Positions 20,514 to 41,849 of a stretch of 64,000 nt of DNA are shown piece by piece. The notes beneath the pieces were generated by a model. The model was not told where the DNA came from, did not search any database, and was given only the letters and a program-made list of their open reading frames with translations. This stretch comes from Luteolibacter sp. GTDB taxonomy: Bacteria; Verrucomicrobiota; Verrucomicrobiia; Verrucomicrobiales; Akkermansiaceae. The position numbers were made by a program, and so were the translations under genes. The stretch covers positions 1-64,000 of the forward strand of contig JAUYNL010000029.1 of the NCBI GenBank assembly GCA_030696085.1. Direction: 5' to 3'. The first letter of the stretch is position 1. Each line of letters starts with the position of its first letter.

Positions 20514-20873
20514 CGACTGGATTGAATTGTTTTGCAGGGTCCACCCGGACTCCCGGATTGGCCTCTGGGAAGCGGGTGTCGCGGAATAGGAAACTCCCGA
20601 TATTTCCACCCGGATCGCTCAGCAGCAGACACGGGTGGCTTGGATCGGTGGAAATCGGGTTCCGCTCTTCCCCGCGCTTCTGAATCGACCGAAGATTGCC
20701 TGAATTTTAAGAAATCTGAAACCTCATTGAGGGATCAATTCCGGCCAATTGGCATCAAAACCGGGCATATCTCAACGGTTTTGAAAATGGGGTGTCAAAT
20801 GACACGCTCCAAATGGTAAGCGAACTGAAAGCGGGAAACGCGGAAGTGATCCGCACCTTCCGGCCATTGGCAC
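20514..20873. other. Intergenic region with a 14-bp inverted repeat
   Basis: No convincing gene is visible in these 360 bases. The region should hold the promoter of the GYF protein gene on the minus strand. GTGTCA-AA-TGACAC at 20792-20805 is a perfect inverted repeat that could be a regulator site. It lies downstream of the oxidase subunit II gene, whose transcript ends here. Confidence 0.4.
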
Positions 20874-21638
20874 TTATTTCTGATTTGCCTGGAGCGCGGC
20901 CGTTGTCTGGCCTTTGAACCATGAATCATAGTCTGCGGCGGGCACCACTTCCATGGTGCCTACCATGTTGCCATGGCCTTCGCCGCAGAGTTGGCCGCAG
21001 ACGACAAAAGTTTCGATGGGTTTGACAGGAGTGAACCACATGGGAATCTCACGACCGGGGATCGCATCCTGTTGGATGCGCATCGGCACGATGTGATAGT
21101 TGTGAATCACGTCCTTGGTGCCGATGTTGAGGACGGCGGGGCGGCTCACCGGCAGTTTGAGGATCGGGCTGGTGAAGTCGTCCAGGGCATTGGGATCCTC
21201 ATGATCGATCCCGAGGTCGTTGGAGCCGGAAATCAGGGTAGGATCCACGCGCCCGAATTTGCCGTCGGCTCCGGAGTAATGATAGGTCCAGCCGAACTGC
21301 CAGCCAACCACGCGCACGCGCACGGGGTTGAGGTTCTGGACTTCCTTCCAGCTATCCACTCGTTCGGCCCAGAGCGGGAAGGCGAATCCAAGCAGGAGCA
21401 CGGCCTCGACGATGATGACTCCCACTTCCAAATGGCTGGAAAGATGGCTTTTCACCCCTTCATAGGAGGCTTTTGGATTCCGCCTGTGCCAGAATCTCAC
21501 CATGCAATAGAGGAAAAACAGCGTCCAGCCGATTAACAGTGCGATCATGAACCAGTGGACCACATCTAGCATGTGATCGACCTGGCTGCCGTGGGCGGAA
21601 AAGTTTTCCGGAATGCCGAGGAACTTGGAAGGACTCAT
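20874..21638 (-). CDS. coxB: Cytochrome c oxidase subunit II
   Basis: This 254-residue subunit accepts electrons from cytochrome c through a dinuclear CuA centre. Two N-terminal membrane helices (about 25-50 and 68-92) precede the cupredoxin domain. VGWQFGWTYHYSG is the aromatic electron-entry region, and CGQLCGEGHGNM supplies the CuA ligands (CxxxCxxxHxxM) intact. There is no fused cytochrome c domain, so the enzyme is aa3-like and needs separate donors, which the operon supplies as membrane-bound monohaem cytochromes. It is the last gene of the respiratory block. Confidence 0.94.
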   Translation of the reverse strand: MSPSKFLGIPENFSAHGSQVDHMLDVVHWFMIALLIGWTLFFLYCMVRFWHRRNPKASYEGVKSHLSSHLEVGVIIVEAVLLLGFAFPLWAERVDSWKEVQNLNPVRVRVVGWQFGWTYHYSGADGKFGRVDPTLISGSNDLGIDHEDPNALDDFTSPILKLPVSRPAVLNIGTKDVIHNYHIVPMRIQQDAIPGREIPMWFTPVKPIETFVVCGQLCGEGHGNMVGTMEVVPAADYDSWFKGQTTAALQANQK

Positions 21639-22160: not shown

Positions 22161-22541
22161 TCAACGAAGTGTGGGAGAGGCAAGCGGGGCCGGAGTGACG
22201 GACTCCTTTCCGTAGAATCGTGAATCGTGGATCGGATCGCTTTTGGCGAGGGCGGTGAGTCCGAACAGGGCGGTCACGAAAACAATACCCGAGCCAAAGA
22301 GCCAGTAAACCGCCTTTTTTTCGTGGTTGAGGTGCATGAAGACCGCGGCCACCAGCGAAGCCTTGGTGGTCGCGATGGCCAGCCCGAGAACGGCGTCCCA
22401 TGCGTCGAAGCCGTGATTGCCGACATCGAGCCAGGGAACGGTGGCAACCATCACCGTGACGACGGTGCCGATAAACAACACCGCCCCGACGAAGAGGTAG
22501 GTGCGGATGGATTTGCGGATTGCATCAGGAGTTTCAGCCAT
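22161..22541 (-). CDS. Cytochrome c oxidase subunit IV-like protein
   Basis: The 126-residue protein has three membrane helices and the motif TTKASLVAAVFMHLNHEKK, typical of prokaryotic COX4/CyoD-like subunits, where it helps assemble the oxidase. It follows subunit III by 40 bases in the same operon. The C-terminal tail after about residue 100 is hydrophilic and not conserved in appearance. Confidence 0.82.
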   Translation of the reverse strand: MAETPDAIRKSIRTYLFVGAVLFIGTVVTVMVATVPWLDVGNHGFDAWDAVLGLAIATTKASLVAAVFMHLNHEKKAVYWLFGSGIVFVTALFGLTALAKSDPIHDSRFYGKESVTPAPLASPTLR

Positions 22542-22581: not shown

Positions 22582-24198
22582 TCACATCAAGTAGAAGATC
22601 GGGAACGCGAAGATCCAGACAAGGTCCACGAAGTGCCAGAACAAGCCACCGATTTCGACGCGGTTGGCCAGCCACTCGGGATTGCTTTCATACATCTTGC
22701 GACCGAAGAAAAGATAATAGGCGAGCACCAGCGCGCCGCCGATGACGTGGAGACCGTGCAGGCCGGTGATCGTGAAGTAGATGGCGTAGTAGGTGTTCCA
22801 TGCCGGGGTGAACTTGGAGGAGAATCCGATTTGCTCGCGCGGTAAGGAGAGATGCGGGAAGGTTTCCTCGCCGCGGGCCGCGTAGTTCGGCCCCTTGAAC
22901 TCCTCGGAGATCCGGCCCCAAAACCCCAGCTTGGGCCTGCCCGCATCTTCGGCCTTCTTTGCGAATTCCTTCCAGCCGATGCGGTAGCGTTCCTTGGCGG
23001 TGGGTTCGCGATTGGGTTTTCCGGTTTTCGGATCGACCTTGTAGGTCGCGATCAGTGTCTTCTCCAGTTTGGCGACTTCCGCCTTGTTCCATTCCCATGC
23101 CTCGCGGGCGAAGGCGTGGTTATTGATCAACCAGGAATTCTCGATGGCCGCCATCGGATCCTGCCCTTTTTCCACCGCCTTCATGGCGAGGTGGCGGAAA
23201 TCGATGGCGTCCACATTGTGGAAAACCATCGGGCTGGCGAGCAGCTTGCCATCGATCACGGTGTCGTCGCGCAGGCGGGATTGGGTATCACCCTCGCGCA
23301 CATCGCGGGGCTTGAAATTCATGCGGGCAGGCGGGTCCACCTTGAACGCGACGGTGCCGATCTCGGTAAGAAGCTTCGGTTCCAGCGCCGTGGCGTCGAT
23401 ATTCACTCCTGAGGCGATCTGCCAGCCGCGTTTGCCGGGGTTTTCAGCCTTGGCTGCTGTCCATTTCTCGCGCAGGGCGGCTGTGCGAAGCGCTCCATTG
23501 TGGGAGCGGGCTTCGAGGTGCGCTTCCTGCAAACGCTCTAGCAGGGCGGGGGACAAGGGCTCGCCGGCCTTGGCAAGGATTCCAACGGCCTGACCTTCCC
23601 TGGTGATTGCGGACACATCCTCGGCGAGCGTGATCTTCGCATTGCGGTGGGCGGCCTGGCTGAGCAATTCCTCGACCCATGGCGTGTGGAAACGCACGGT
23701 GCTGAAGGTGAGTCCGCTCGCTTCGATCAGGATCCGGTTTTCCTCGATCTTGCGACCGTGGTGATCGAGCACCTCCTTGCCCTTCTCCTTCTCGTAGCCA
23801 AGGTGTCCCTCTATCACGGTGTAATCGGGCAGGCGCACCGCCTGGTGGTGGAACTTCACGTTGTATTCGAGCCCCTTGAGCACCATGAAGATCGCCGCGC
23901 AGGCGATGGTGACCGTCATGAAGAACTGGAATCTCCGCCACTGGCGCATCTTCAAGGATGCCCACGCGAAGACAACCGTCACGGACGAACCAATGAGGAT
24001 GAAGGTGTTGATCAGGCCCGGCAGCACCGGTAGCGTGCGCTCCGGCCACGGGTAGTCCGCTCCGATGCGCAGGAACACATAGGCTGAGAAGAAGCCTCCG
24101 AAAAGCATGACCTCAGAGGCCAGGAAGAGCCAGATTGCGATCTTCGAGTTGAACAGACCGGTGTCCTTGCGAGGGGTGACGATGTAGGGGATTTCCAT
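22582..24198 (-). CDS. coxC: Cytochrome c oxidase subunit III with large insertion
   Basis: This 538-residue protein is more than twice the usual length of about 200. Residues 1-117 contain the first three helices, including the conserved Glu of FLASEVMLFGGFFSAYVFLR. The last 79 residues hold the remaining two helices (GLHGLHVIGGALVLAYYLF and FWHFVDLVWIFAFPIFYLM). Between them, about residues 118-459 form a hydrophilic, mixed alpha/beta-looking domain with no CxxCH haem motif. By family topology this loop faces the periplasmic side. The reading frame is continuous and both ends are normal, so the insertion looks genuine. Its role could be cytochrome docking or supercomplex contact. Confidence 0.9.
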   Translation of the reverse strand: MEIPYIVTPRKDTGLFNSKIAIWLFLASEVMLFGGFFSAYVFLRIGADYPWPERTLPVLPGLINTFILIGSSVTVVFAWASLKMRQWRRFQFFMTVTIACAAIFMVLKGLEYNVKFHHQAVRLPDYTVIEGHLGYEKEKGKEVLDHHGRKIEENRILIEASGLTFSTVRFHTPWVEELLSQAAHRNAKITLAEDVSAITREGQAVGILAKAGEPLSPALLERLQEAHLEARSHNGALRTAALREKWTAAKAENPGKRGWQIASGVNIDATALEPKLLTEIGTVAFKVDPPARMNFKPRDVREGDTQSRLRDDTVIDGKLLASPMVFHNVDAIDFRHLAMKAVEKGQDPMAAIENSWLINNHAFAREAWEWNKAEVAKLEKTLIATYKVDPKTGKPNREPTAKERYRIGWKEFAKKAEDAGRPKLGFWGRISEEFKGPNYAARGEETFPHLSLPREQIGFSSKFTPAWNTYYAIYFTITGLHGLHVIGGALVLAYYLFFGRKMYESNPEWLANRVEIGGLFWHFVDLVWIFAFPIFYLM

Positions 24199-24257: not shown

Positions 24258-26141
24258 TCAGTGATCGGGCTTGGACTTCTTTGGTGTCTCCCATTGTGGG
24301 ATGTAATCCTGCACCGAGTCCGGGCGGCTGTATTCATAGGGACCGCGATAGACGGCGGGGTCGAAGGTGAAATTGCCATGGCCGGGAGGTGTGGGAGTCG
24401 CCCATTCCAGGGTGGTGGCGTTCCATGGATTGTCACTCTCGACTTTTTTGCCAGTCTTCCAGGAGACGAACAAATTGATGATGAAGGGAATCTGGGCGAG
24501 TGCCAGCGTCCATGCGCCCATGGACATCAGGATGTTCATGTCGATGTGCTGGGCCACCGTGTTGCCGAACACGTTGGTGCTGTCCGCGGCCTTGGAGAGA
24601 TAGGCGTCTCCGCCATTGTACCAGCGGCGGTGGAAGCCGGCCATGCCTTGGAGGAGCATCGGGAAGAAGATCAGGTTCATGCAGACCAGGCTGGGCCAGA
24701 AGTGAAGATGGTTGAGCCATCCGCTCATGTAGCGGCCGGTGATTTTCGGATACCAGTGCAGCACGCCGGCGAAGAGACCGAAGAGGATGCCGGGGGCCAC
24801 CACGTAGTGGAAGTGGCCGATCACATAATAGGTGTCGTGCAGGTGAAGATCCGCCAGGTTGAAGGCAAGCGGCAGTCCGGTCAGACCGCCAATGCCGAAC
24901 ATCGGGATGAAGGCGCAGGCCCACATCATGGGGGGGGTGAAACGGATTGATCCGCCCCACAGGGAGATGAGCATGGCGGTGATGATGACCACCGAGGGCA
25001 CCGAGATCAGGACGGTGGTGGTTTGGAAGAAGGTGGATACGGCAGCTCCCATGCCAGTCATGTACATGTGGTGCGCCCAGACGATGAAGGATAGGAAACC
25101 GAGCACGAGGACCGAATAGACCATCGACTTGTAGCCCCAAAGCGGCTTGCGCGTGTTGACGGGAATGATTTCCGCCACACAGGCGAAGGCGGGAAGCAGC
25201 AGCACATAGACTTCCGGATGGCCGAGGAACCAGAACAGGTGCTGGAACAGCAGCGGTGAGCCGCCGCCCGAGAGATCGGCAAGACCTTCGCTCTTGGTGA
25301 ACAAGCCGGAGGGCATGAAGAACGACGAGTGAAAGACACGGTCTGCAAGTTGCATGATGCCTGCTGCTTCCAGCGGCGGAAAGGCAAGCAACAACAGGAA
25401 TCCGGTGACCAGCATCGACCACACGAAGAAGGGCATGCGCATCCATGTCATGCCGCGGGCGCGGAGATTGATGATGGTGGTGATGAAATTGACGGAGCCG
25501 AGAAGCGAGGAGGTGATGAGCAGGACCAGTCCGATGAGCCATTGGGTCTGCCCTGCGAGCCACGGGTTGACGACCTGTCCATCGGCGAATCCGGCGAGCG
25601 GCGAGTAATTCGTCCATCCAGACTTGGCCGCGCCGGACTCCATGAAGAAGGATGTGCACATCACGAGCCCACCCAGAAGATAAACCCAGTAACTCGCCAT
25701 GTTGAGGCGGGGGAAGGCCATGTCGGGCGCACCGATCTGCAGCGGCGTGACGTAGTTTCCAAAAGCTCCGAAACCGAGCGGCACGATGCCGAGGAACACC
25801 ATGATCGTTCCATGCATGGCGCCGAACATGTTATAGGTCTCGCCGGTCACCTTGCCATCCTGCAGCCAGCGGGCCTTCCATCCATCGGTGAAAATCCAAC
25901 TCATCCACTCCGGCAGGGGTTGGTGCGGGTAGGCGATGCTCCAGCGCATCACCATCATCAGGTAGAAACCGAAGGCCAGGAAGCACATCGCCGTGATGCC
26001 ATACTGGAGTCCGATCATCTTGTGATCCGTGGAGAAGACGTATTTCCGGATGAATCCGGGATCATGATGGTGATCTTCGTGGGGGGCTGCGTGCCCTGGA
26101 TGGGTGGTGGCGTGAGAGCTCATGGTTCCGGCGTGCGGCAT
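24258..26141 (-). CDS. coxA: Cytochrome c oxidase subunit I
   Basis: The 627-residue catalytic subunit reduces O2 to water at a haem a3-CuB site and pumps protons. After a His-rich N-terminus come the low-spin haem His in NMFGAMHGTIM, the CuB His and crosslinked Tyr in H308-P-E-V-Y, the CuB pair in VWAHHMYM, and the haem ligands in HDTYYVIGHFHYV. All are intact, so this is a type A heme-copper oxidase and the true terminal oxidase of the locus. An in-frame ATG 6 codons later is an alternative start. Subunit III follows after a repeat-containing spacer. Confidence 0.95.
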   Translation of the reverse strand: MPHAGTMSSHATTHPGHAAPHEDHHHDPGFIRKYVFSTDHKMIGLQYGITAMCFLAFGFYLMMVMRWSIAYPHQPLPEWMSWIFTDGWKARWLQDGKVTGETYNMFGAMHGTIMVFLGIVPLGFGAFGNYVTPLQIGAPDMAFPRLNMASYWVYLLGGLVMCTSFFMESGAAKSGWTNYSPLAGFADGQVVNPWLAGQTQWLIGLVLLITSSLLGSVNFITTIINLRARGMTWMRMPFFVWSMLVTGFLLLLAFPPLEAAGIMQLADRVFHSSFFMPSGLFTKSEGLADLSGGGSPLLFQHLFWFLGHPEVYVLLLPAFACVAEIIPVNTRKPLWGYKSMVYSVLVLGFLSFIVWAHHMYMTGMGAAVSTFFQTTTVLISVPSVVIITAMLISLWGGSIRFTPPMMWACAFIPMFGIGGLTGLPLAFNLADLHLHDTYYVIGHFHYVVAPGILFGLFAGVLHWYPKITGRYMSGWLNHLHFWPSLVCMNLIFFPMLLQGMAGFHRRWYNGGDAYLSKAADSTNVFGNTVAQHIDMNILMSMGAWTLALAQIPFIINLFVSWKTGKKVESDNPWNATTLEWATPTPPGHGNFTFDPAVYRGPYEYSRPDSVQDYIPQWETPKKSKPDH

Positions 26142-26310: not shown

Positions 26311-27090
26311 TCAGGGAGCGGCTCCGGCAACCGGTGCCAGCGTGATGGGATCCACCATGGCCTTGGGATCAAGAGGTTCGCCCGGCAGGGCCTTGAGGTG
26401 ATCCGCGGTGAGTTCTTCCGTGGTCACCTGCTGGCCGACTTTGGCGCGCTTGCTGGAAATTTCCATCGCGGCTTTCGCCATTTCCACGGTGACGACATCA
26501 CCCACGGAGTTGCCGAAATTGTTGCGCACATAGGTCATGATGCCGGCTAGGTCCTCGGGGCTGAGTCCGGCACCTTGGGCGGCCATGCCACCGGCTCCGC
26601 CGTAGGTTTTTCCAGTGCTCATTGGACCATGGAGGCCGTTGAGAATGATCATGGCGAAGCGTTCTGTCTCACCAGTCGCCCATGCGGAGCCCACGAGGGA
26701 TGGGAAATTCGCTCCATCGCCCTTGGCATCGGACATGTGGCAGCCGTTGCACTTCACAGAATAGATCTTGGAACCGCGGGTCATGTAAGCGGCGAGCGCT
26801 TCTTTGGGTTGGGGGCCGGTTTCCACCGCGCCTGGCGGCGGGGTGCGCACATAGCCATCCTGGAAAATGGACGCGTAATTGAACAACTTTCCGGCTCCGC
26901 CAAGGATGCCGCCTGCGATTAGGAAGACCACACCGCTGGCCGCAAGCACCCACAGGGAGATCGGTTCCGAGCCGTTGCTGGCAATTCTCTTTTCGCGGGC
27001 GGTAGCCGCAGTTTCGCGAGCCACGCGGCCATGGACCACGCTCACGTTGATCGAGTCCTCAAGGTCGGGTTTCTGGGTGGGCGGAGACAT
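26311..27090 (-). CDS. Membrane-anchored monohaem cytochrome c
   Basis: The 259-residue protein has a cytoplasmic N-terminus, one membrane helix (about 44-66) and a periplasmic cytochrome c domain with the haem motif CNGCH (114-118) and later GGMAAQGAGLSPEDLAGIMT and YVRNNFGN. It resembles the 29394 protein in architecture and in the YVRN-FGN motif. It lies between the CcoO-like gene and oxidase subunit I, so it is a natural donor to the CuA site. The C-terminal 60 residues are Pro/Ala-rich. Confidence 0.85.
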   Translation of the reverse strand: MSPPTQKPDLEDSINVSVVHGRVARETAATAREKRIASNGSEPISLWVLAASGVVFLIAGGILGGAGKLFNYASIFQDGYVRTPPPGAVETGPQPKEALAAYMTRGSKIYSVKCNGCHMSDAKGDGANFPSLVGSAWATGETERFAMIILNGLHGPMSTGKTYGGAGGMAAQGAGLSPEDLAGIMTYVRNNFGNSVGDVVTVEMAKAAMEISSKRAKVGQQVTTEELTADHLKALPGEPLDPKAMVDPITLAPVAGAAP

Positions 27091-27119: not shown

Positions 27120-27827
27120 TCAGTTCTCGTCGTTCTTTTTCGCGGGAGCGAAATTGAGTGTGGCAGGAACCGGGTGATCCTTCTTGAGAGATAGCAAGTA
27201 AGAGATCAGGGCTTTGGCGTCTGAGTCTGGCACCAGTTCGCGACCGGGACCGGCATCGATTGGAAGCGCGTCATCAGAGGGGTTGCCTTTCACCTCGCGA
27301 TTTACGAAGAGGAATGGATGCGGCGGACAGGTGGAGTTCCAGAGCTCGGTATTTGCACGCGGATTGTATAGGTGGGAGTAGAGCCATTGTTCGGAATTCA
27401 CTCCGGCAGCGAGGAGGTATTCGAGACGGCGACCGAGGTTTGAGAGGTCCGGTCCCATCCGCATGAGGCCGATCTGCGCGAAGGTTTCTCCATTGAAATC
27501 GTAGGCATTGGTTTCGCGGCGGGTGTCGCCACGGTCCGGATCATTTTTCAAACCACCCCAGTCCGGGCGATAGAGGTCGTTGCCAGCATAAGTGGGGCGC
27601 ACCACCTGGGTGTGGCAGAGGTAGCAGCCGTTCTCGGCATAGACCTTGGCTCCATCCGTCACGCGTCCGCTGCGTTTCGGGATAAAAATTCCCGCGCTTG
27701 TGGCTTTCTCCTCAGGAAACGGAAGCGCCGCGAGGTCGCGCATCTTGAGATAGGGAACCACAATGATTGCAAGCCATGCGACGCCGAAGGTGGCGGAAAG
27801 GCCGAGGATGAAGGTGCGGAGGCTCAT
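27120..27827 (-). CDS. CcoO-like membrane monohaem cytochrome c
   Basis: The 235-residue protein has an N-terminal helix (about 5-26) and a haem motif CYLCH (68-72) in the CcoO context ENGCYLCHTQVVRP, followed by MGPDLSNLGRR and HLYNPRAN. These are clear signatures of cbb3 oxidase subunit II. The usual SNMPxYPWL-type segment is replaced by NSTCPPHPFLF. It directly follows the CcoN-like gene, as in cbb3 operons. Its partner lacks oxygen chemistry, so this subunit may only relay electrons. Confidence 0.85.
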   Translation of the reverse strand: MSLRTFILGLSATFGVAWLAIIVVPYLKMRDLAALPFPEEKATSAGIFIPKRSGRVTDGAKVYAENGCYLCHTQVVRPTYAGNDLYRPDWGGLKNDPDRGDTRRETNAYDFNGETFAQIGLMRMGPDLSNLGRRLEYLLAAGVNSEQWLYSHLYNPRANTELWNSTCPPHPFLFVNREVKGNPSDDALPIDAGPGRELVPDSDAKALISYLLSLKKDHPVPATLNFAPAKKNDEN

Positions 27828-27865: not shown

Positions 27866-29365
27866 TCAGTGGGCGGTGGCGTGTCCGGGTCCGGCGTTGT
27901 CGATATCGCCCTCCTCACCGTGTGGGCTGGAGCCGTGGGCGCGAACCAGAAGGGTGGGGTGGGAGCTGCGACGACCGAGGCGCAGCCACATTAAAGCGAG
28001 GTGAATGAAGAAGAAGATGTTTGAAAATAGGATGAGGCACCAGGCGAAGGTGATGGCAACCGCGTAGGGTTCCGCAAATGCGGCCGCGCCGGCCCAGGGT
28101 TGCTGCCAGTCCTCCTGGCCGCCACCCTGAAGTAATCCGCCGAATAGCGCCACCAGCGAGACGGCGATGATGCCATAGACCGAGAACAGGAAATGGATCT
28201 TGATAAGGCGGCGGGAGAGCCACTCGCGGCAGGTGATTCGCGGCACGATGAAGTAGGTGGCCCCGAACATCACCAGACTGAAAAATCCGTAAAGAGCCAG
28301 AATTTCAAAACCATATCCCGAAAGGGAAAACTGCGTGAGGGGCAGCGACGAACCGGGCAGATTGAGCAGCACTGCGGCAATGGCGAGCACGATCAAGCCG
28401 GTGATGCCGGCGACGGTGAAACGCAGCGCCGGGCTTGCTGCCAGCGTCTCGGGACATGAGGTCATCGTGCGGATCGTATTGACGGCGGCGGCGCATGCCG
28501 GAACGAATAACAGGGAGGTGGCGGCGGCACCCAGATAGGGCATGAAATACGGAATTGGCGCACCGACGAGTTTCTGCATTCCGGCCCAGGGTGCGATGAT
28601 GGCGAGCGACCAGAAGCCGAGTTTCGCCAGCGAGTAGCTGTAAACCGGGCGGCCCGTCACTTTGGGCGCGAGATAGTAGGCCGTGCCCAGTGCGACGGGA
28701 GTGAAGAACAGGAATATCATGCCGGAGCGGAACCAGGCATTGATGCCCGCCGCCATCACCGGGTGTCCGGGGAGGCAGTGGAGCAGCGTGTTGGCGGTGA
28801 TGAAGATCCAGGGAAACCAGATCATCGCTGCGAGAAGATACCATTGGGAGATATACACATGGCCTTCCTTGCGGACGCGAAACTGGATGAAGGAGCCGAT
28901 GAGGATGGCGAAATAACTAACCAGCAGGACCGGCCAGGCGAACGAGGGGAACTCCATCCATGGCATCCCGGTGCCGTGACCCAGAAGAATGCCCGCCACT
29001 CCGAGGGTGACGCCGAGGTTCCAGACATGGCCGGCGGTTAGAATGGTGCCGGCCATGGTGCACTCCTTGCGGGAAAGCCGGGCCATCAGCCAGATGATCA
29101 CCGCGAAGGCCGCCTGCATGCCCCAGCCATAGACCAGCGCGTTGATGTGGGCGGGATAGACCCTGCCATAGGTCAGGAGAGGGCATGATGAAAGGAATCC
29201 GGGACTGTGAACCTTCGCGGCGGAGATCACACCTAGCAGGATCGAAACCGCAAGCCAGGCGGCCCCGCTGGTCAGGAAGAACATCACCGGATGGCGCAGC
29301 GAACGGTCGATTCCCGCCCGCAGAAGCGCATCCTGATCGTGGGTGGTGGAAGTGATGGAAGACAT
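27866..29365 (-). CDS. CcoN-like protein lacking catalytic histidines
   Basis: The 499-residue polytopic protein aligns with cbb3 oxidase subunit I (CcoN) over most of its length: LTYGRVYPAHINALVYGWG, YYLAPKVTGRPVYSYSL and ATYFIVPRITCRE are direct counterparts. One low-spin haem His (H73) is kept. No histidine occurs between residues 202 and 390, the stretch that should carry the CuB ligands, the haem b3 ligand and the second low-spin ligand. WYGHNAV is WFRSGMI (211-217), WAGPHHLH is WAGMQKLV (260-267), and the GHVH motif of helix X is absent. The frame is intact and well preserved, which argues for a selected non-catalytic role. A CcoO-like gene follows. Confidence 0.85.
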   Translation of the reverse strand: MSSITSTTHDQDALLRAGIDRSLRHPVMFFLTSGAAWLAVSILLGVISAAKVHSPGFLSSCPLLTYGRVYPAHINALVYGWGMQAAFAVIIWLMARLSRKECTMAGTILTAGHVWNLGVTLGVAGILLGHGTGMPWMEFPSFAWPVLLVSYFAILIGSFIQFRVRKEGHVYISQWYLLAAMIWFPWIFITANTLLHCLPGHPVMAAGINAWFRSGMIFLFFTPVALGTAYYLAPKVTGRPVYSYSLAKLGFWSLAIIAPWAGMQKLVGAPIPYFMPYLGAAATSLLFVPACAAAVNTIRTMTSCPETLAASPALRFTVAGITGLIVLAIAAVLLNLPGSSLPLTQFSLSGYGFEILALYGFFSLVMFGATYFIVPRITCREWLSRRLIKIHFLFSVYGIIAVSLVALFGGLLQGGGQEDWQQPWAGAAAFAEPYAVAITFAWCLILFSNIFFFIHLALMWLRLGRRSSHPTLLVRAHGSSPHGEEGDIDNAGPGHATAH

Positions 29366-29393: not shown

Positions 29394-30149
29394 TCAGGGC
29401 TTGGTCAATTCTTCCACGGTGAGTTGCGGTTTTCCGACTTCACTGCGAAGCGCGGCCACCTGTTCGGGCTTCACGGCGGGTGCCTTGTTGCCGAAACTGT
29501 TGCGGACGTAGGTGAGAACTCCCGCGATCTGCTCGTCGGTTTGATAGGCCATCGGCGCCATGCCGACAGGGAATTTGTATTCCGTGCCTTTCACGGTGAT
29601 CGGTCCCTGGAGACCGCGGAGTTGGATGCGGATCAGGTTGGAAACCGGGCCGACGACCCACTCCGATCCTGCGAGCGGAGGTGCAATCGGGCCGCCCTCT
29701 CCGTTCTGGCCGTGGCAGGCAGCGCAGACCATGAACTGGACCTTGCCGATCTCCATCAATGCGGGGTTGATCGGGCCATCCACGGCGGGTGCGACATCAA
29801 CTGCCGAGGTGTCCACTGGAGGCGTGGAGGCGAGTTTTTCGGCGGTGGGAGAGCCCGGCACGACTTGATCGGGTTTTTCGACGGCGGCGGGTTTGGAAAT
29901 CGCTAGTTTGGCGGCGACGGCGGGGATCGCAGCGTCAATGGCTGCCTGCGGGAGGGCGGTAGCTTGGGCGGCATCCACTTTGGCCTTGATGTCATATCTC
30001 GGCACGGCGGCGGCGTCCTCAAGCGTCGTGACGGGCTTGCGGGTGACCACAATGATGACCGCCAGCAGCAGGGCGAAGATCAGGAAGCTGCCGATACCCC
30101 ACCAGAACGTGGTGAAGCGGATGATCTGATTGTCGCGATTAGGGTCCAT
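29394..30149 (-). CDS. Membrane-anchored monohaem cytochrome c
   Basis: The 251-residue protein has one membrane helix (about 14-36), an Ala/Pro/Val-rich linker of about 90 residues, and a cytochrome c domain with CAACH (142-146) and YKFPVGMAPMAYQTDEQIAG, where a Met could be the sixth ligand. The linker would let the haem domain reach between complexes. It lies between actF and the CcoN-like gene, which suits electron transfer away from Act. Similarity to the 26311 protein (YVRNSFGN against YVRNNFGN) points to duplication. Confidence 0.87.
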   Translation of the reverse strand: MDPNRDNQIIRFTTFWWGIGSFLIFALLLAVIIVVTRKPVTTLEDAAAVPRYDIKAKVDAAQATALPQAAIDAAIPAVAAKLAISKPAAVEKPDQVVPGSPTAEKLASTPPVDTSAVDVAPAVDGPINPALMEIGKVQFMVCAACHGQNGEGGPIAPPLAGSEWVVGPVSNLIRIQLRGLQGPITVKGTEYKFPVGMAPMAYQTDEQIAGVLTYVRNSFGNKAPAVKPEQVAALRSEVGKPQLTVEELTKP

Positions 30150-30168: not shown

Positions 30169-31479
30169 TCAGTTGGAGAGGTTGGCGGACTCGAGGATGC
30201 GCGGGTCGCGGTTCGGATAGAGCGAGTGCTGGCCGATGGCGCGCAGCAGGAAGAACAGGAAGGCCGAGCCGATGGTCACGAAAGCGAGGATGTCCCCCCA
30301 GAACGCGCCGGGAATGGAGACCTGAATGTCTCCGAAGACCTCGTGATTGATGTTGCCAAGCGAGATGCCGCGCTCGGGGACGCTAATGAGATAGTGGTCG
30401 AGCACATGCATGACGAGCGTGTAGCCGGCCATGATCGAGAGCGTTTTCGGGTTTCTCTTGAGCCATGCCTGGAGCAGGATGACGAAGGGAACGACAAAGT
30501 GGCCGAAGACCAGCACTATCATCGCGGTGTTCCAGTTGCCGGTGTTGCGGATGAGGAAATACGAGGTTTCCTCGGTGATGCCGGCATACCAGATGAGGAA
30601 ATACTGCGAGAAGGCGATATAGGCCCAGAACACGGTGAAGGCGAAGAGCAGTTTGCCCATGATGTGGAAGTGCTCGGGACCGGTGACGTGCTTCAGGTGG
30701 CCCTGGCTCTTGAGCCACGCGCAGACAAGGATGATCACCGCCATCGAGTTGAGCGCCGAACCGGCGAACAGATAGACGCCCCACATCGTGGAGAACCACT
30801 TGTAATCGAGCCCCATCATGAAATCAAAACCGGTGAAGGTGATTGTCAGCGCGAAGATGATCAGCGTGTAGGTCGAGTGGAAACGCGCCTTGAACAGGCG
30901 TGCGGTGCCGGGATTCGGGTCGCTGTCCTGGGCGATGGAAAGTTTTCGCAGGCCGATGATCACCAGACTCAGGCCGACACCCCAGAAGATCACGCGGCCA
31001 TACCAGAACGGCAGGTTCATGAACCAATACTTGTTGTAGAGCAGGTGATCGTGGTGGTGGAGGTATTCCTTCACGTCGCCGGTGGCGGCGCGGTGGGTGT
31101 TCATCCACTCGTAGAGGTATTGCTGGACTTCCGGGCAGAGCAGCGGGATGCCGAAAAGGAACATCCAGGGGTAGGTGGAGCCGAGGTTCTCGAAGGTGCG
31201 GCGCACCGAGGTTCCCCAGCCGGAGTTGGAGACATTGTGGAGCAGCGTCCAGAAGCAGCCGCCGATGGAGAGCGTCAGGAAAAAGTAGAACGCGAACAAC
31301 CAGGAGTAGGCGAAGGAACCGCTGATCTTCTCCGGCGCGAAGAATAGCAGATAGAGGCTGATGAGCGTGCCGACGGCGGCCACGCCCATGGCGATGGCTT
31401 TCACCTTGGCAACCTTCGAGTTGTCGAGGTGATCGCCGTCGATGGCGATGTCTGCGGAAGTGACGTGGTGGTGTGCCAT
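30169..31479 (-). CDS. actF: Alternative complex III subunit ActF
   Basis: The 436-residue membrane protein has about ten predicted helices and matches the quinol:cytochrome c oxidoreductase ActF subunit, with YSWLFAFYFFLTLSIGGCFW, FDFMMGLDYKWFSTMWGVYL and FAYIAFSQYFLIWYAGI-like segments. It is distantly related to the NrfD-like ActC subunit and is part of the membrane arm. It ends the actA-F gene set, with 13 bases to actE. The His-rich N-terminal stretch (AHHHVTSAD) is cytoplasmic by prediction. Confidence 0.92.
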   Translation of the reverse strand: MAHHHVTSADIAIDGDHLDNSKVAKVKAIAMGVAAVGTLISLYLLFFAPEKISGSFAYSWLFAFYFFLTLSIGGCFWTLLHNVSNSGWGTSVRRTFENLGSTYPWMFLFGIPLLCPEVQQYLYEWMNTHRAATGDVKEYLHHHDHLLYNKYWFMNLPFWYGRVIFWGVGLSLVIIGLRKLSIAQDSDPNPGTARLFKARFHSTYTLIIFALTITFTGFDFMMGLDYKWFSTMWGVYLFAGSALNSMAVIILVCAWLKSQGHLKHVTGPEHFHIMGKLLFAFTVFWAYIAFSQYFLIWYAGITEETSYFLIRNTGNWNTAMIVLVFGHFVVPFVILLQAWLKRNPKTLSIMAGYTLVMHVLDHYLISVPERGISLGNINHEVFGDIQVSIPGAFWGDILAFVTIGSAFLFFLLRAIGQHSLYPNRDPRILESANLSN

Positions 31480-31492
31480 TGCGATGGGAAAA

Positions 31493-32140
31493 TTATTTGG
31501 AGGATGCCTTGGCGGCCTGCAGCGTGTGGATGTAGGCGACGATGGCCCAGCGGTCGCGCACCGGAATGTTGTAAGCGTAGCCGCTCATCTGGCCCATGCC
31601 GTTGGTGATGGTATTGAAAAGGCGGCCGTCCGGATAGGTTTCCTGCGTGAGGGCGTTGAGTTTTGCGTTCGGGTTGGCGGCGACGGGCACGCCGTAGCTG
31701 GCGGTGATGCCGTTGCCATCGCCGGATGCGCCGTGGCAGACCGCGCAATAGATGCCGAAGCGTTCCTTGCCACGCAGGATCATCTCTGCGGCGTTTTCGG
31801 AGGTGAGGCCGAGTTCTTCGGGCATGCCGTTGCCGTAATAGTCGCCGACATGGCCGGTGTAATAATAACCGGTCTGACCGCCGAATTCATACTCAGGTAT
31901 TCCGCCGATGACTTTTGCACCTTCTGGATTGAAACCGCGCGGCTGGGTCTGGGAGACGGGCAAGCGGTCGCCCTGGCCGTTGGCGAAGAACGGATCCGGT
32001 TTCTGGGCTTTAAGTTTGTCCTGCTCGTCCATGTCCGGGAAGATCCGGACCGGCGGCTTGGTGAACTTCTGCCCGCGCAGGCCGAAGATGCCGACGACAA
32101 GCAGCGCGATCAGAGCGTAGGCGAGGAAAAAGTAGCGCAT
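31493..32140 (-). CDS. actE: Alternative complex III monohaem cytochrome ActE
   Basis: This 215-residue protein has an N-terminal helix (about 3-21) and a periplasmic cytochrome c domain with CAVCH (132-136) in the context YCAVCHGASGDGNG. MGQMSGYAYNI offers a Met ligand. The ATG at 32140 is chosen because it starts the membrane anchor; the frame extends upstream into an AT-rich spacer. Act complexes use ActE to collect electrons from the ActA/ActB haem and Fe-S chain and to pass them to cytochrome c or the oxidase. Confidence 0.92.
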   Translation of the reverse strand: MRYFFLAYALIALLVVGIFGLRGQKFTKPPVRIFPDMDEQDKLKAQKPDPFFANGQGDRLPVSQTQPRGFNPEGAKVIGGIPEYEFGGQTGYYYTGHVGDYYGNGMPEELGLTSENAAEMILRGKERFGIYCAVCHGASGDGNGITASYGVPVAANPNAKLNALTQETYPDGRLFNTITNGMGQMSGYAYNIPVRDRWAIVAYIHTLQAAKASSK

Positions 32141-32180
32141 CGGGGAGTGGAAATTGGATATTGGAAACTTGAAATTCGGA

Positions 32181-32735
32181 TCAGTCCTCTTCTTCGACGA
32201 GTTCGATGTTGGCACCGCCTATTTCCGCGAGCAGCTCACGGGTGGCGTTGGGGCTGAATTTCGAATCGCGAGCTTCGATGGCGATGAAGAATCCGTCATC
32301 GGTGGCGCGGTGGAATTGCTTGCTGGCGAAGAGCGGGTGGTTGAGGCGCGGAAGCTGGATCAGCGCGAGCAGGCCGAAAAGCACGGTGAAGCCGGAAAAC
32401 AGGATCGTCAGCTCGAACATCACCGGGAAAAAGGCGGGGATGGTGAAGATGTTGGCGGGCTTCGCCTGCACCACGGTCGGATAGATGACGACCTGGGTGG
32501 AGTAGGCGAGGGTGAATGCGGTGGCGGTGCCAGTCATGCCGCCGAAGAAGACGAACCAGGGAAGGATCGAACGCTTGAGCCCCATCGCGCCGTCAAGTCC
32601 GTGGATCGGATAGGGGGAGTAGCAGTCCCATTTCCGGAAGCCGGCGTCGCGGATCTTTTCCGCCGCCTTGTAGAGTGCGGAGGCGCTCTTGAACTCGGCG
32701 AGGTAGCCGTAAACTCGTTTGCGGGTGGTGCTCAC
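32181..32735 (-). CDS. actD: Alternative complex III subunit ActD (DUF3341)
   Basis: The 184-residue protein starts with a small soluble domain (YGYLAEFKSASALYKAAEKI), then YSPYPIHGLDGAMGLKRS, typical of DUF3341, and two membrane helices (about 58-80 and 95-125). It fits the usual ActD length. The gene lies between actC and actE with spacers of 34 and 40 bases containing AT-rich simple sequence. Confidence 0.92.
   Translation of the reverse strand: MSTTRKRVYGYLAEFKSASALYKAAEKIRDAGFRKWDCYSPYPIHGLDGAMGLKRSILPWFVFFGGMTGTATAFTLAYSTQVVIYPTVVQAKPANIFTIPAFFPVMFELTILFSGFTVLFGLLALIQLPRLNHPLFASKQFHRATDDGFFIAIEARDSKFSPNATRELLAEIGGANIELVEEED

Positions 32736-32769: not shown

Positions 32770-32773
<4 letters not shown>
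32744..32773. repeat. TTTTCAG repeats in the actC-actD spacer
   Basis: Four imperfect copies of TTTTCAG fill the spacer and overlap the actC stop codon (32770-32772). The same heptamer is found at 24217-24236. Related GAAATTTGAAA-like text occurs in other spacers of the operon (27834-27860 and 32146-32176). Confidence 0.5.
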
Positions 32774-34248
<1,475 letters not shown>

Positions 34249-34416: not shown

Positions 34417-37400
34417 TCAGACCATGTGGATGGTGGCCTTGCCGATGAACCTGGCGTCCGGCATGTCGGGATTCGGGTTCTTCACGCGGGCCAGATAACT
34501 GGTGCGCGGGCGGGTGCCGATGTAGTTGAGCAGGTCGTAGTTGCGCTCGATGTGCTTGCTGCGGACCAGCGCCGACTTGTCGCCATCGAGCAGGTTTCCG
34601 AAGGTGATGGCATCGGCGGGGCAGGCTTCCTGGCAGGCTGTTTTCACCGAATCCACCGGGATGCGGAGGGTCTTGGTGGTGACCTCCATCTCGGTGGATG
34701 CCTTGCCGGCGACGAGCGCCTCCTGTTTCTGGCCGCGCTTCTGGCGGATGACGGAATCCTTGAGACGCTGCACGCAGTAGGTGCACTTCTCCATCACGCC
34801 GCGCATGCGGACGGTGACGTTCGGGTTCTTCTGGAGGTGATCGGCATCGCCCACGGTTTTCTCACCAAGCGGACCTTTGTAGAGGTTGTGTTTGATGAGC
34901 GGGTTGCGCTTGTTGTAATCGAAGAAATTGAAGCGGCGCGCCTTGTAGGGGCAGTTGTTGGCGCAGTAGCGGGTGCCGATGCAGCGGTTGTAGGCCATCG
35001 CGTTGAGGCCGTCCTCGGTGTGGACGGTGGCGTTGACCGGGCAGACGGTTTCGCAGGGAGCTGACTCGCAATGCACGCAGGCGACCGGTTGCGGAACGAG
35101 CGCCGGGTTGTCGGGATCGAAGGTGTTGTCCTTTTGCGCGGCGAAATACCGGTCCATGCGGATCCAGTGCATTTCACGGCCTTTGGCGACCTGCTCCTTG
35201 CCGACGATGGGGATGTTGTTTTCCGCCTGGCAGGCGACGAGACACGAGTTGCAGCCCATGCAGGCGGAGAGGTCGATGGCCATGGCCCACTGGTGGAGCG
35301 GGTCATTGAGGTGCGGTTGGGCCTTGCCGTCCTTGCCGGGGTTCCATTTCGCGGAGCCTAACGGTTTGTAGAGATAGACATTCGGCGGGGCGTGGGAGTC
35401 GTTGCCCTGTTTCTTGACGTTGGCGAGTTGTGCCTTGAAGTCGCCCTTTTCGTCGTCCGATTCGATGGTGGAAACCTCGCGGGCGAGCGCGCGGCCATAC
35501 ATCGCGCTGTGTTCCTGGACGAGCGCCACCGAGTAGCGTTTGTCCGTGAGTTCGACGGTGGCGCCGGTGGTGAAATAGGTGGTGGCGGAGCCGCGCAGCG
35601 GATAGGCGTTGAAACCGCGGTTGATGCCGACGAGTCCGACATGGGATTGATTGGCGGGCTTGCGGCCGAGTTCGTCGTCCTTGTCGAAGGCCTGGCCGTA
35701 GCCGAGCGGGATGATGAGGGTGTTTTCGGCCTGGCCGAAGGAAACGAGCACGGGGATTTCGAGCGTGCGGCCGTTGACCGTCACCTGGATCATCGGCTGC
35801 TTGCGGTTTTCGCCTTCGCCGTCCGGGCCGACGTCGGCGTATTTGCTTTCAACGCCAAGGATGGTGGAAACCGGTTCGGGTTCGATGATCAGGTCATAGA
35901 TGCCGAGTTCCTTGGCGGTTTTGGGGGCGATGAGCGCGGCATTGTCCCAGGTGAGCTTGGAGATCGGATCCGGAGCTTCCTGAAGCCATGCGTTGTCGAT
36001 CCAACGACCGTCGTAAACCGAGGCGTCGGTGGCGAAAATCACTTCGAGCGCATCCTTGACTGGGGCCGCGGCGAAAGATCCGGCGGCAAGCGGGCTCGCG
36101 ACGGGTGTCGCAAGCGGATAGGAGGAATCGGCCAGGAAGCCATCGCGCAGGAGTTTTTTCCATGCGGACAGATCTTCTCCGCCAAGGGCGGCGAAGGTTT
36201 TGCGGACCTGGTCGTAAGCGGGCGAGGGGGCCTCCTTGTCACCTTCTCCATCAAGGAGTTTTCCGTCGTCCGAAAGCAGTGCGGATAGAATTTCCAGTTC
36301 GGAAACGCAGTTCGGATAGAGCGGCAGGATCATCGGCTGCACCACGGTGTAGGTGCCGCGGGCGCTGCGGGCGTCCGACCACGATTCGAGATAGTGGGCG
36401 GCCGGGATGTGCCAGGTGCTGGCGAAGGCGGTGGCGTTGGTGCGGTCGCTGAGATGGATGCTTGTCTTCACCTTGGCGAGCAGGCCGGCGAAATCGAGGT
36501 CCGCCGGAGCATCGTATATCGGATTGGATGGCGTGAGCAGGAACAAGGTGTCGATGCCGCCACTTTCGATGTCCTTCTTGAGAGCGGCGAGAGAACCGAG
36601 TCCGGTGACTTCGGTCTGTAAGGCGAGCAGGGCCTTGCCTTCGCCAATGTTTTCGAGGGCCAGATTGATCGCCAGGGCGATCTGGTGCACGGCGGGCGAT
36701 TGGCGGGACCCTGCGAGCACCATCGACTTACCGGCATTGCTCTTGAGATCCGCTGCCATGGCCTTGATCCACGCCACTTGCTTGGAATCGGTGATTTCCG
36801 GACTCTCCACGATGCCCGGGACCGCGAGTTCGCGGGCGATCCGGGCGGCGACGAGCGCCACCTGGCTGGCCGCGACTCGCAGGCGATGGTCCGCCATGCC
36901 GCCGGTGAGCGAGAATGCCGCCTCCACGGCATAGAGGCGGTTCATCTTCGCCGCGTCCGGTTTGTGATCGTATGCCTTTCCTTCCGGTTTGCGGCGATCA
37001 AAGAAGGGAGTCACCGGTCCTTGCGGGTCGGTTCCGGCGAAATCGCAGTCGAGCGCGAGTATCCGGTCCGCTTTGGCGAAATCGGCGACGAGTTTCACGC
37101 CATCGCCGAGCACGACCGGTGCCTCGCCCGTCAGCGCCTCATATTGATAGAACTTCGCGGCGGGAAACTTCGCGGAAATGTCCTTGGCGAGGCGCTTGCG
37201 GGTCGGGCTGTCGTCGGCACCGAAGAGAAAACCGATTTTTGCCGACTTGTCGGTGGCGATGGCGGCGATGGCGGCATCGAGTTCCGCGCGTTTGGCGGGC
37301 TTGCCGGACTTGAGGATCTGGCGCGAACGGGAGGGGGAGTAGAGGTCGAGGACCGAAGCCTGGGCAAAGGCATCGGTGCCTTCCGCATCCGGGTGGAGTT

Positions 37401-37794
37401 TGTTAGGGGCCAGCTTGGTGGGGCGGCCCTCGAAGGTGGTGACCACCAGCGGTGTCGCTCCGGTGGCGCGCGGCATGGAGGAGGCGTAATAGGTCGCCTT
37501 GCCGGGGATGATCCACTCGGGGGCCTTGGTGTAGGGGACGATGTAGCTTTCAGGGCGGCGGCAGGCGGCCGTGCCGAATCCGGCGAGCGCGGTGGATGCT
37601 CCCATCAGTTTGAGAAACGAGCGGCGCGAGGTTTCCGCATCGGATTCATCGGCCATTTCGGCGGCTCCCTGTGGAAACTCGCGGTCCAGCCATTCGCGGA
37701 AGGCCGGGGTGTCTTCCAGTTGGCCCGCACTGCGCCAGGAAACGGTGGTTTCGTCGGCGGGGACTTCGGGGTGATGCCAAATGCGCTTGCTCAT
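34417..37794 (-). CDS. actB: Alternative complex III Fe-S subunit ActB
   Basis: The 1125-residue protein fuses a molybdopterin-oxidoreductase-like domain (about 80-750, without the cofactor-binding residues that I would expect) to an Fe-S domain. A twin-arginine-like motif [10 protein letters not shown] (about 56-65) followed by GFGTAAC78 suggests Tat export and lipid anchoring. The Fe-S part holds [48 protein letters not shown] and CTYCVQRL...CQEACPADA, giving ligands for about four clusters. The start at 37794 is chosen by the Act N-terminal motif [10 protein letters not shown]. It passes electrons from quinol toward the ActA/ActE haems. Confidence 0.94.
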
Positions 37795-37841
37795 GTCTGA
37801 CTGCGGAAATTTTTTTGGAAATTGAAAAACGGGCGGGTGAA

Positions 37842-38540
37842 TCAGTGGTGGCAGGTGGCGCAACTTTTCTTCGGATTCACCTGGAACTGCTCCTTGAGCT
37901 TGAGGCCGAGATCCTTGGTGGTCTTCACGCCCTGGTCCTTGGTGTATTTCAGGACGTCGGCGTCTCCGTAGTTGAAATTATAAACCTCCTCAAGCGGACG
38001 CAGGGCATTTTCCGGCGCACGGTGGCAATCCAGGCACCAACCCATCGAATGCGGCTGGTCCTGCCAGACGACCTCCATCTTGTGAACATCTCCGTGGCAG
38101 CTCTGGCAGGAAACGCCGCGGTTGACGTGGGCCGAGTGGTTGAAATAGACAAAATCGGGCGATTTGTGGACGCGCACCCACTCGATCGGCTTGCCATCGT
38201 AGCCGGGGAATGCCGGGTTCATCGATTTGTGGAGCGGCGCGAGTTTCGGACTCTCCCGCTGGACATGCTGGTGGCAGTTCCAACAGGTGTTGCCGCCAGG
38301 CACGTTCGAGTGACCGGAAACCTCGACAAATGAGTGGCAGTAGCGGCAGTCGAGACCTACCTGATCGACGTGGATCTTGTGGGAGAAGGGAATCGGCTGC
38401 GAAGGCTGGTAGCCCACCGTCAGGGTTTTGGGGGTCGCGTAGTAGGTGAAGGCGAGTGCGACGCCTGCCGCTGCGGATCCGGCGCAGACGGCGATTTTCA
38501 GAGGCAGGAGATTGGACCAGCGGGGAAAAATGTTTGCCAT
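37842..38540 (-). CDS. actA: Alternative complex III pentahaem cytochrome ActA
   Basis: The 232-residue protein has an N-terminal helix (about 13-33) and five CxxCH motifs: CRYCH, CWNCH, CQSCH, CLDCH and a terminal CATCH. Additional His residues (FSHKIHVDQ, FNHSAHVNRG) can serve as distal ligands. This is the normal ActA haem count and length. It is the first gene of the act operon. The roughly 270 bases before it (38541-38810) should contain the operon promoter, but I see no distinctive motif there. Confidence 0.94.
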   Translation of the reverse strand: MANIFPRWSNLLPLKIAVCAGSAAAGVALAFTYYATPKTLTVGYQPSQPIPFSHKIHVDQVGLDCRYCHSFVEVSGHSNVPGGNTCWNCHQHVQRESPKLAPLHKSMNPAFPGYDGKPIEWVRVHKSPDFVYFNHSAHVNRGVSCQSCHGDVHKMEVVWQDQPHSMGWCLDCHRAPENALRPLEEVYNFNYGDADVLKYTKDQGVKTTKDLGLKLKEQFQVNPKKSCATCHH

Positions 38541-41565: not shown

Positions 41566-41849
41566 GCGCACTCGGTGTCCGCAAGCAGTGAACCGGAGGC
41601 GGTCATTGTGGTCAACATGCTTTCCCCACCGGTCGGCATCGTAAGATTCTCCGGGAAAACCCTTGCCAACGGCCGGAATCCGACTATGGGTTCCGGCGCG
41701 CCGGGTTACCGGCACCGCGGAATTGATCGTTAGATTCCGCCCTTGTCCGGTCTTCATCGATGAGAGAGATTGTTTGAGGCTCTTCCGAAATATCCCTCAT
41801 CGACACCGCCCGCCGCCGATTTCCGGAGGGTGCGGGCATTCTGAAAGAC

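Follow-up and report, generated by a model that had tools for sequence, protein, structure and literature searches.

The operon described here encodes a homologue of CcoN, subunit I of the cbb3 oxidases, that lacks the ligands of the oxygen-reduction site, is under purifying selection and lies beside the genes of alternative complex III (ACIII). It is located in the window, by which we mean the whole 64,000-nucleotide stretch of contig JAUYNL010000029.1 from Luteolibacter sp. that was analyzed. We consider it likely that the locus encodes an extended ACIII, in which a haem-free CcoN scaffold would hold a relay of c haems that passes electrons to another oxidase. The chances are about even that an oxidase became a haem-free adaptor of this kind in at least 12, perhaps 27, lineages of a single class, and that the published "cbb3 oxidases" of verrucomicrobial methanotrophs are such dead cores.

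The operon is read from the minus strand in the order actA-actB-actC-actD-actE-actF-cytX-ccoNx-ccoOx-cytY-coxA-coxC-coxD-coxB, as seen in Table 1, with intergenic gaps of 13-38 bp from actE to cytY. The full actA-F set of ACIII is present, actF being assigned by position and conservation alone, and the aa3 oxidase genes adjoin the act genes. The first-pass annotation had placed the ccoN-ccoO pair exactly between actF and the aa3 genes, flanked by two similar membrane cytochromes. The two cytochromes, cytX and cytY (P0002 and P0004), are indeed 32% identical, and the CcoO-like monohaem subunit follows ccoNx with its CYLCH motif as described. However, cytX intervenes between actF and ccoNx in the window, and it is absent from most of the class. 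The product of cytY carries one CxxCH motif, unlike a dihaem CcoP. Upstream of actA, at 39250-41757 on the minus strand, a multihaem-cytochrome-like protein with TPR and HEAT repeats is encoded. Beside the cox genes, at 18249-20609 on the same strand, there is a gene for a protein rich in Ala and Glu, with two GYF_2 domains and a probable coiled coil. CoxC has 538 aa, with the large insert between two COX3 parts, while the copies of the f8 methanotroph type have just 263-290 aa.

Table 1. Genes of the ACIII operon in the window, listed in order of transcription
Gene	Position	Strand	Product	Remarks
actA	37842..38540	minus	Multihaem cytochrome c	Five CxxCH motifs
actB	34417..37863	minus	Molybdopterin-oxidoreductase-like and iron-sulphur domains	Long ORF, start codon uncertain
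actC	32770..34248	minus	NrfD-like	Pfam PF03916
actD	32181..32735	minus		Pfam PF11821, 1.1e-60
actE	31493..32215	minus	Monohaem cytochrome c	
actF	30169..31479	minus		Directly upstream of the add-on; assigned by position, order and conservation; no Pfam match
cytX	29394..30149	minus	Membrane monohaem cytochrome c	Lies between actF and ccoNx in some lineages only, 28/97 ligand-less loci
ccoNx (P0001)	27866..29365	minus	CcoN homologue, 499 aa	Ligands of CuB and haem b3, the cross-linked Tyr and the second low-spin haem ligand are absent
ccoOx (P0003)	27120..27827	minus	CcoO-like monohaem c subunit	CYLCH retained; Cys167 at the expected axial Met
cytY	26311..27090	minus	Membrane monohaem cytochrome c	Class-wide companion of ccoN-ccoO
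coxA	24258..26141	minus	aa3-type oxidase subunit I	
coxC	22582..24198	minus	Oxidase subunit III	Large insert
coxD	22161..22541	minus	Oxidase subunit IV	
coxB	20874..21638	minus	Oxidase subunit II	CuA-type motif, no fused cytochrome c

The intact frame proposed for ccoNx was confirmed, as its 499 codons run from 29365 to 27866 without interruption. The protein matched Pfam COX1 at 1.3e-40 and NCBIfam ccoN at 1.8e-32. The latter score, 113 bits, lies under the curated cut-off of 583 bits, and so do those of ligand-bearing copies of the same locus (225-256 bits). Significant sequence matches among solved chains were to CcoN (cbb3 subunit I) without exception. An AlphaFold2 model was built from 34 family members (mean pLDDT 81, pTM 0.85), and its best Foldseek matches were the cbb3 structures 9g83, 8smr, 9g6b, 6xkw and 3mk7. 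VIA-align superposed the model on 3mk7_G with a Z of 43.3 and an rmsd of 2.4 over 437 residues. Foldseek and VIA-align matches to NOR, ba3 and aa3 ranked under those to cbb3. By fold and by sequence kinship, ccoNx is a CcoN.

To locate the ligands, ccoNx was aligned to P. stutzeri CcoN (3mk7), whose numbering is used for the reference residues below. The roles of the mapped residues in CuB, haem b3 and low-spin haem binding and in the cross-linked Tyr are those established for 3mk7. The alignment, which the first-pass annotation had proposed as a check, confirmed the losses. The CuB ligands H207, H257 and H258 are replaced by S214, Q264 and K265, the cross-linked Y251 by A258 and the haem b3 ligand H345 by F353. 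In the low-spin haem b pair, H60 is retained as H73 and H347 has become I355. Six of the seven mapped residues are thus gone, with H73 the sole survivor. The earlier observation that no histidine occurs from residue 202 to 390 is exact, since the histidines are at 9, 25, 53, 73, 113, 130, 169, 196, 201 and 391, with further ones beyond. The second CcoN of the same genome (G000:C96, L051) is a canonical fused CcoNO with all seven residues present.

Relatives in the same locus fall into two groups. In 33 copies H60, H207, Y251, H257, H258, H345 and H347 are all retained. Ligand loss is close to all-or-none: in 92 thinned ligand-less copies, none of the six histidines was kept in 39, one in 39, two in 13 and three in one. 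The survival of H73 holds for the window but not for the group, as this residue is itself gone in 67 of the 92 ligand-less relatives. The K-path residues T215, S240 and Y317 were lost together with the ligands. The emptied pocket has been refilled with different residues lineage by lineage, and the lineages share no new set of residues where the ligands used to be.

The remainder of the protein is constrained. Of the positions that ligand-bearing copies conserve, 41 are also kept at 80% or above where the ligands are missing, the ligand-less ORFs are at least 461 aa long in all 200 read, and dN/dS is 0.03-0.1 for close pairs within the genus of the window. ccoNx is under purifying selection. 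The terminal-branch ratio of CcoN to ActBC was 2.05 for ligand-less and 0.73 for ligand-bearing copies (p 1e-11). Ligand-less CcoN therefore evolves faster, yet the dN/dS values and the 41 kept positions place it under constraint. The suggestion of a preserved non-catalytic heme-copper scaffold tied to ACIII is supported by these data. One copy (G620:C58:225282-226710) has its CcoN match split over two overlapping frames, which is a frameshift or a sequencing error.

Sampling covered the Verrucomicrobiota; 258 loci were read, and linkage was counted on a thinned set. The locus gene ccoN is present in 304 of 384 Verrucomicrobiia genomes. Of the 59 genomes of near relatives, from the same genus and order, 57 gave a match, though in three it was to the canonical CcoN only. 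The class-wide locus is actABCDEF-ccoN-ccoO-cyt c, and in the phylum sample ActD and CcoN matches are co-located in almost every genome of the class. In the thinned set, actF was directly upstream of ccoN in 96/97 ligand-less and 29/31 ligand-bearing loci, and ccoO was downstream in 92/100 and 32/33. The extra cytochrome cytX lay between actF and ccoN in 28/97 ligand-less loci and 1/31 ligand-bearing loci. A coxA gene within 7 kb downstream was found in 43/90 ligand-less and 4/30 ligand-bearing loci, and independent pairs showed no association between ligand loss and an adjacent coxA. We therefore rejected aa3 as a constant partner. The linkage counts of actF and coxA indicate that the constant partner is ACIII, so the neighbor scoring suggested by the first-pass annotation bore out the link to ACIII and not the link to aa3 as a general feature. 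The same annotation had named ligand-bearing homologues in the locus as evidence that would count against a scaffold. Such homologues were found, in the 29 loci with actF directly upstream. They do not refute the scaffold; they point instead to its repeated descent from a real oxidase.

The number of losses was estimated from several trees. On a tree of ActB and ActC (132 rows, 1437 columns), explaining the ligand state takes a minimum of 19 changes, or 27 losses if regain is barred, and the result was unchanged after branches with SH-aLRT below 95 were collapsed. A tree of CcoO and the cytochrome gave 13 changes. A large, quick CcoN tree gave only 2 changes, with nearly all ligand-less copies in one clade, a grouping that we read as long-branch attraction or convergence. 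Two reduced sets were treated more carefully. In the first, ligand-less copies were nested with ligand-bearing copies of their own families in f7, f9 and f15; in the second, the same nesting was seen in f82 and f15, and f86 was compatible with it (p-AU 0.37). Holding f15 together gave a p-AU of 0.063 in one reduced set, and the other set recovered f15 as one clade without this constraint. CcoN's own reduced trees thus support at least four losses, and the neighboring genes support more. Within family f9, ligands are kept in some genomes and lost in others. Genus g42 contains one copy with ligands (L190) and two without (L152 and L210). Identity within this genus is 80-94% for the six act genes, 68-71% for CcoO and 48-51% for CcoN. 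Since same-locus relatives keep all seven residues, one of them within the genus of two ligand-less copies, a true oxidase is the probable ancestral state.

In another possible history, the ligands were lost just once or in a few instances, after which the ligand-less form was carried into act loci by gene replacement. The grouping in the large CcoN tree would fit this history, and both forms co-occur in two genomes (L181/L182, and L211 with the act-locus copy of its genome). However, the large tree joins long branches, the Act and the CcoO-cytochrome trees interleave ligand-less and ligand-bearing states, and the reduced CcoN trees put ligand-less copies with their own families. We regard replacement, including an exchange of just ccoN between lineages, as fairly unlikely. 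A strictly single origin was rejected, as it is favored by the large quick tree and not by the act, CcoO-cytochrome or reduced CcoN trees.

The haem-binding partners of CcoN have been kept. The CxxCH motif of CcoO was retained in all 141 loci, 101 ligand-less and 40 ligand-bearing, and the haem motif of the cytochrome in 98 of 98 ligand-less loci. The axial Met of CcoO was present in 40/40 ligand-bearing loci compared to 72/101 ligand-less loci (Fisher p 2e-5, kinship ignored). It was replaced by Cys in 20 of the other 29, these 20 being from the family of the window. A small number of further ligand-less lineages have S, H, A, R or K instead, but no ligand-bearing locus read has a replacement. 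On the ACIII tree this position changed at least 11 times. Such replacements could mean altered or weakened electron transfer.

These findings, namely ligand loss and its repetition, linkage to ACIII genes, purifying selection and retention of c-haem motifs, are those on which our preferred explanation is built. The extended ACIII would consist of ActA-F plus a three-gene add-on, ccoN-ccoO-monohaem cytochrome c, whose origin was probably an ACIII-linked oxygen reductase of the cbb3-like (C-type) kind. In the lineage of the window and many others, CcoN would have lost the ligands of both haems and of CuB together with the K-type proton path and stayed as a membrane scaffold. Presumably without any bound haem, it would hold the haems of CcoO and cytochrome c on ACIII and, in the window, would be physically assembled with ACIII and aa3. 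Since CcoO and the cytochrome retain their c haems, the module most likely passes electrons laterally. They would move in the periplasm from ACIII (ActA/ActE) through the CcoO and cytochrome haems to another acceptor. Here this would be the CuA of CoxB in the aa3 oxidase encoded next door; elsewhere it would be an oxidase whose genes lie at a different site. As CoxB carries a CuA-type motif without a fused cytochrome c, its donor could be a membrane cytochrome. We thus infer, as the first-pass annotation did, that the module wires quinol oxidation to a terminal oxidase. About half of the ligand-less loci have no adjacent aa3, which counts against this explanation. In Flavobacterium, ActE is dispensable for transfer to aa3 (PMC8552683), suggesting that electron exits from ACIII vary.

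CcoNx might instead be a stable, redox-silent assembly or docking factor for ACIII, and for the oxidase where one is adjacent, with the haems of CcoO and cytY off the main path. This is unlikely but carries some weight: CcoNx has no complete haem ligand set and keeps its scaffold residues, ACIII linkage is near-universal, and the axial Met of CcoO is replaced in 29/101 ligand-less loci. It does not predict, however, that the CxxCH of CcoO (101/101) and the cytochrome motif (98/98) would persist after many CcoN losses. The differently refilled pocket in a fast-evolving protein that keeps its fold could also mean that the vacated cavity has taken on a new task, for instance as a quinone site or an ion path, with CcoO giving or receiving electrons. 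The lack of a common residue set at the lost ligand sites argues against a single shared function of this type, and we find the idea quite unlikely.

For methanotrophs and Opitutaceae, published annotation and gene order present CcoNx as an active cbb3 oxidase (PMC8498564, PMC6688271, PMC11102522), and the ligand-bearing relatives in the same locus might be taken to agree. Activity through unusual or shifted ligands is extremely improbable, though, given the six residues missing in the window and the 78 of 92 thinned ligand-less copies that retain at most one of the six histidines. In an alignment-free count over residues 181-420, 179 of 200 ligand-less copies also had no HH and no HxH motif; the alignment and this count together led us to reject a working cbb3 with shifted ligands. 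Decay of ccoNx after reliance on aa3 is hardly credible. Faster evolution than in ligand-bearing copies and the single frame-split copy are what it would predict, but every ligand-less ORF is full length, dN/dS is low and the locus persists across the class. A pseudogene was ruled out by the ORFs and dN/dS, and decay, which the first-pass annotation had also named as evidence against a scaffold, was not borne out.

The other oxidases of these genomes were compared with the state of CcoN. An A-type oxidase match was found in 34/34 ligand-less genomes and was absent in 7/36 ligand-bearing genomes (p 0.011, kinship ignored), which fits the ligand-bearing copies being real oxidases. The seven are G059, G185, G407, G525, G340 and G341 (loci L139, L153, L183, L185, L192 and L201) and G203. 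In these genomes the ACIII-linked CcoN may be a main oxidase.

The genomes of family f8 carry pmoA. In those of the phylum sample (G100, G112, G129, G209 and G317), a threshold of 1e-20 left no CcoN match other than the gene adjoining ACIII, and the catalytic ligands are absent in all three f8 copies read (L144, L146 and L177). Judged by score and length, the remaining COX1-family genes of f8 seem to be A-type, B-type or NorB-like. The ACIII-adjacent genes of verrucomicrobial methanotrophs and Opitutaceae have been described as a cbb3 oxidase (PMC6688271, PMC8498564, PMC11102522), and one of these papers ties it to high oxygen affinity. We infer that the published methanotroph "cbb3 oxidase" and the ACIII-adjacent gene of f8 are the same. 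Judging from the residues present, these "high-affinity oxidase" genes are most probably incapable of O2 reduction and would encode a structural, electron-passing adaptor instead.

The CcoN fold and the neighborhood of ACIII and cbb3 genes were already known. Like the CcoNO core of cbb3 (3mk7, 8smr, 6xkw), the window encodes a subunit I fold (Z 41-43) and an adjacent CcoO-like monohaem partner with CxxCH. Unlike cbb3, ccoNx lacks ligands for CuB and haem b3, has an incomplete low-spin haem pair and is without Tyr251 and the K-path residues; a single-haem cytochrome replaces the dihaem CcoP, and the genes are part of an ACIII operon. The act genes are shared with the ACIII-aa3 of Flavobacterium johnsoniae and the ACIII-caa3 of Rhodothermus marinus, in which ACIII is tightly associated with an A-type oxidase (PMC8552683, PMC5928083). 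The sections of these papers on which we draw mention no CcoN/CcoO module, whereas CcoN-CcoO-cytochrome lies between actF and the oxidase here. The methanotroph and Opitutaceae loci (PMC8498564, PMC6688271) are the same type of gene cluster, but those papers treat the oxidase as functional, in contrast to the ligand-less copies of the pmoA-bearing family. A heme-copper oxidase relative in Nitrospina gracilis, in which one CuB ligand is replaced and the haem sites are kept (PMC3578206), is likewise a family member with altered metal ligands. In ccoNx, by contrast, the catalytic sites are all lost and only the partner haem subunit remains. A literature search for inactive heme-copper subunits returned nothing relevant, and no report of a ligand-less, conserved and repeatedly derived CcoN was found in the literature searched, most subscription journals being beyond reach.

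If our preferred reading of a haem-free scaffold is true, a pseudoenzyme lies at the center of a respiratory chain, kept by selection repeatedly in the same operon slot. It would also reveal a repeatable route from an enzyme to an electron-wiring subunit of a quinol-oxidizing complex. Annotating the gene as a high-affinity cbb3 and deducing a low-oxygen lifestyle from it is unsafe in Verrucomicrobiia, including the methanotrophs. The role of the module can be tested directly, since there are same-genus genomes with and without ligands as well as cultured carriers, such as Luteolibacter pohnpeiensis and species of Haloferula.

Departures from the usual locus were also seen. Genus g18, which belongs to the family of the window, has no CcoN; one of its genomes (G079, L178) has a diverged ActC/ActD/ActE/ActF-like cluster left without CcoN. 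In the two genomes with both forms, G559 (L181/L182) and G585 (L211), the act-locus CcoN is joined by another copy, which bears the ligands and had no act genes in the sequence read around it. Stand-alone ligand-bearing CcoN/CcoO pairs with no act genes nearby were found at L162, L163 and L165-L167. In the CcoN tree they branch at the base of the locus family, and they are a possible source of the ACIII-linked module.
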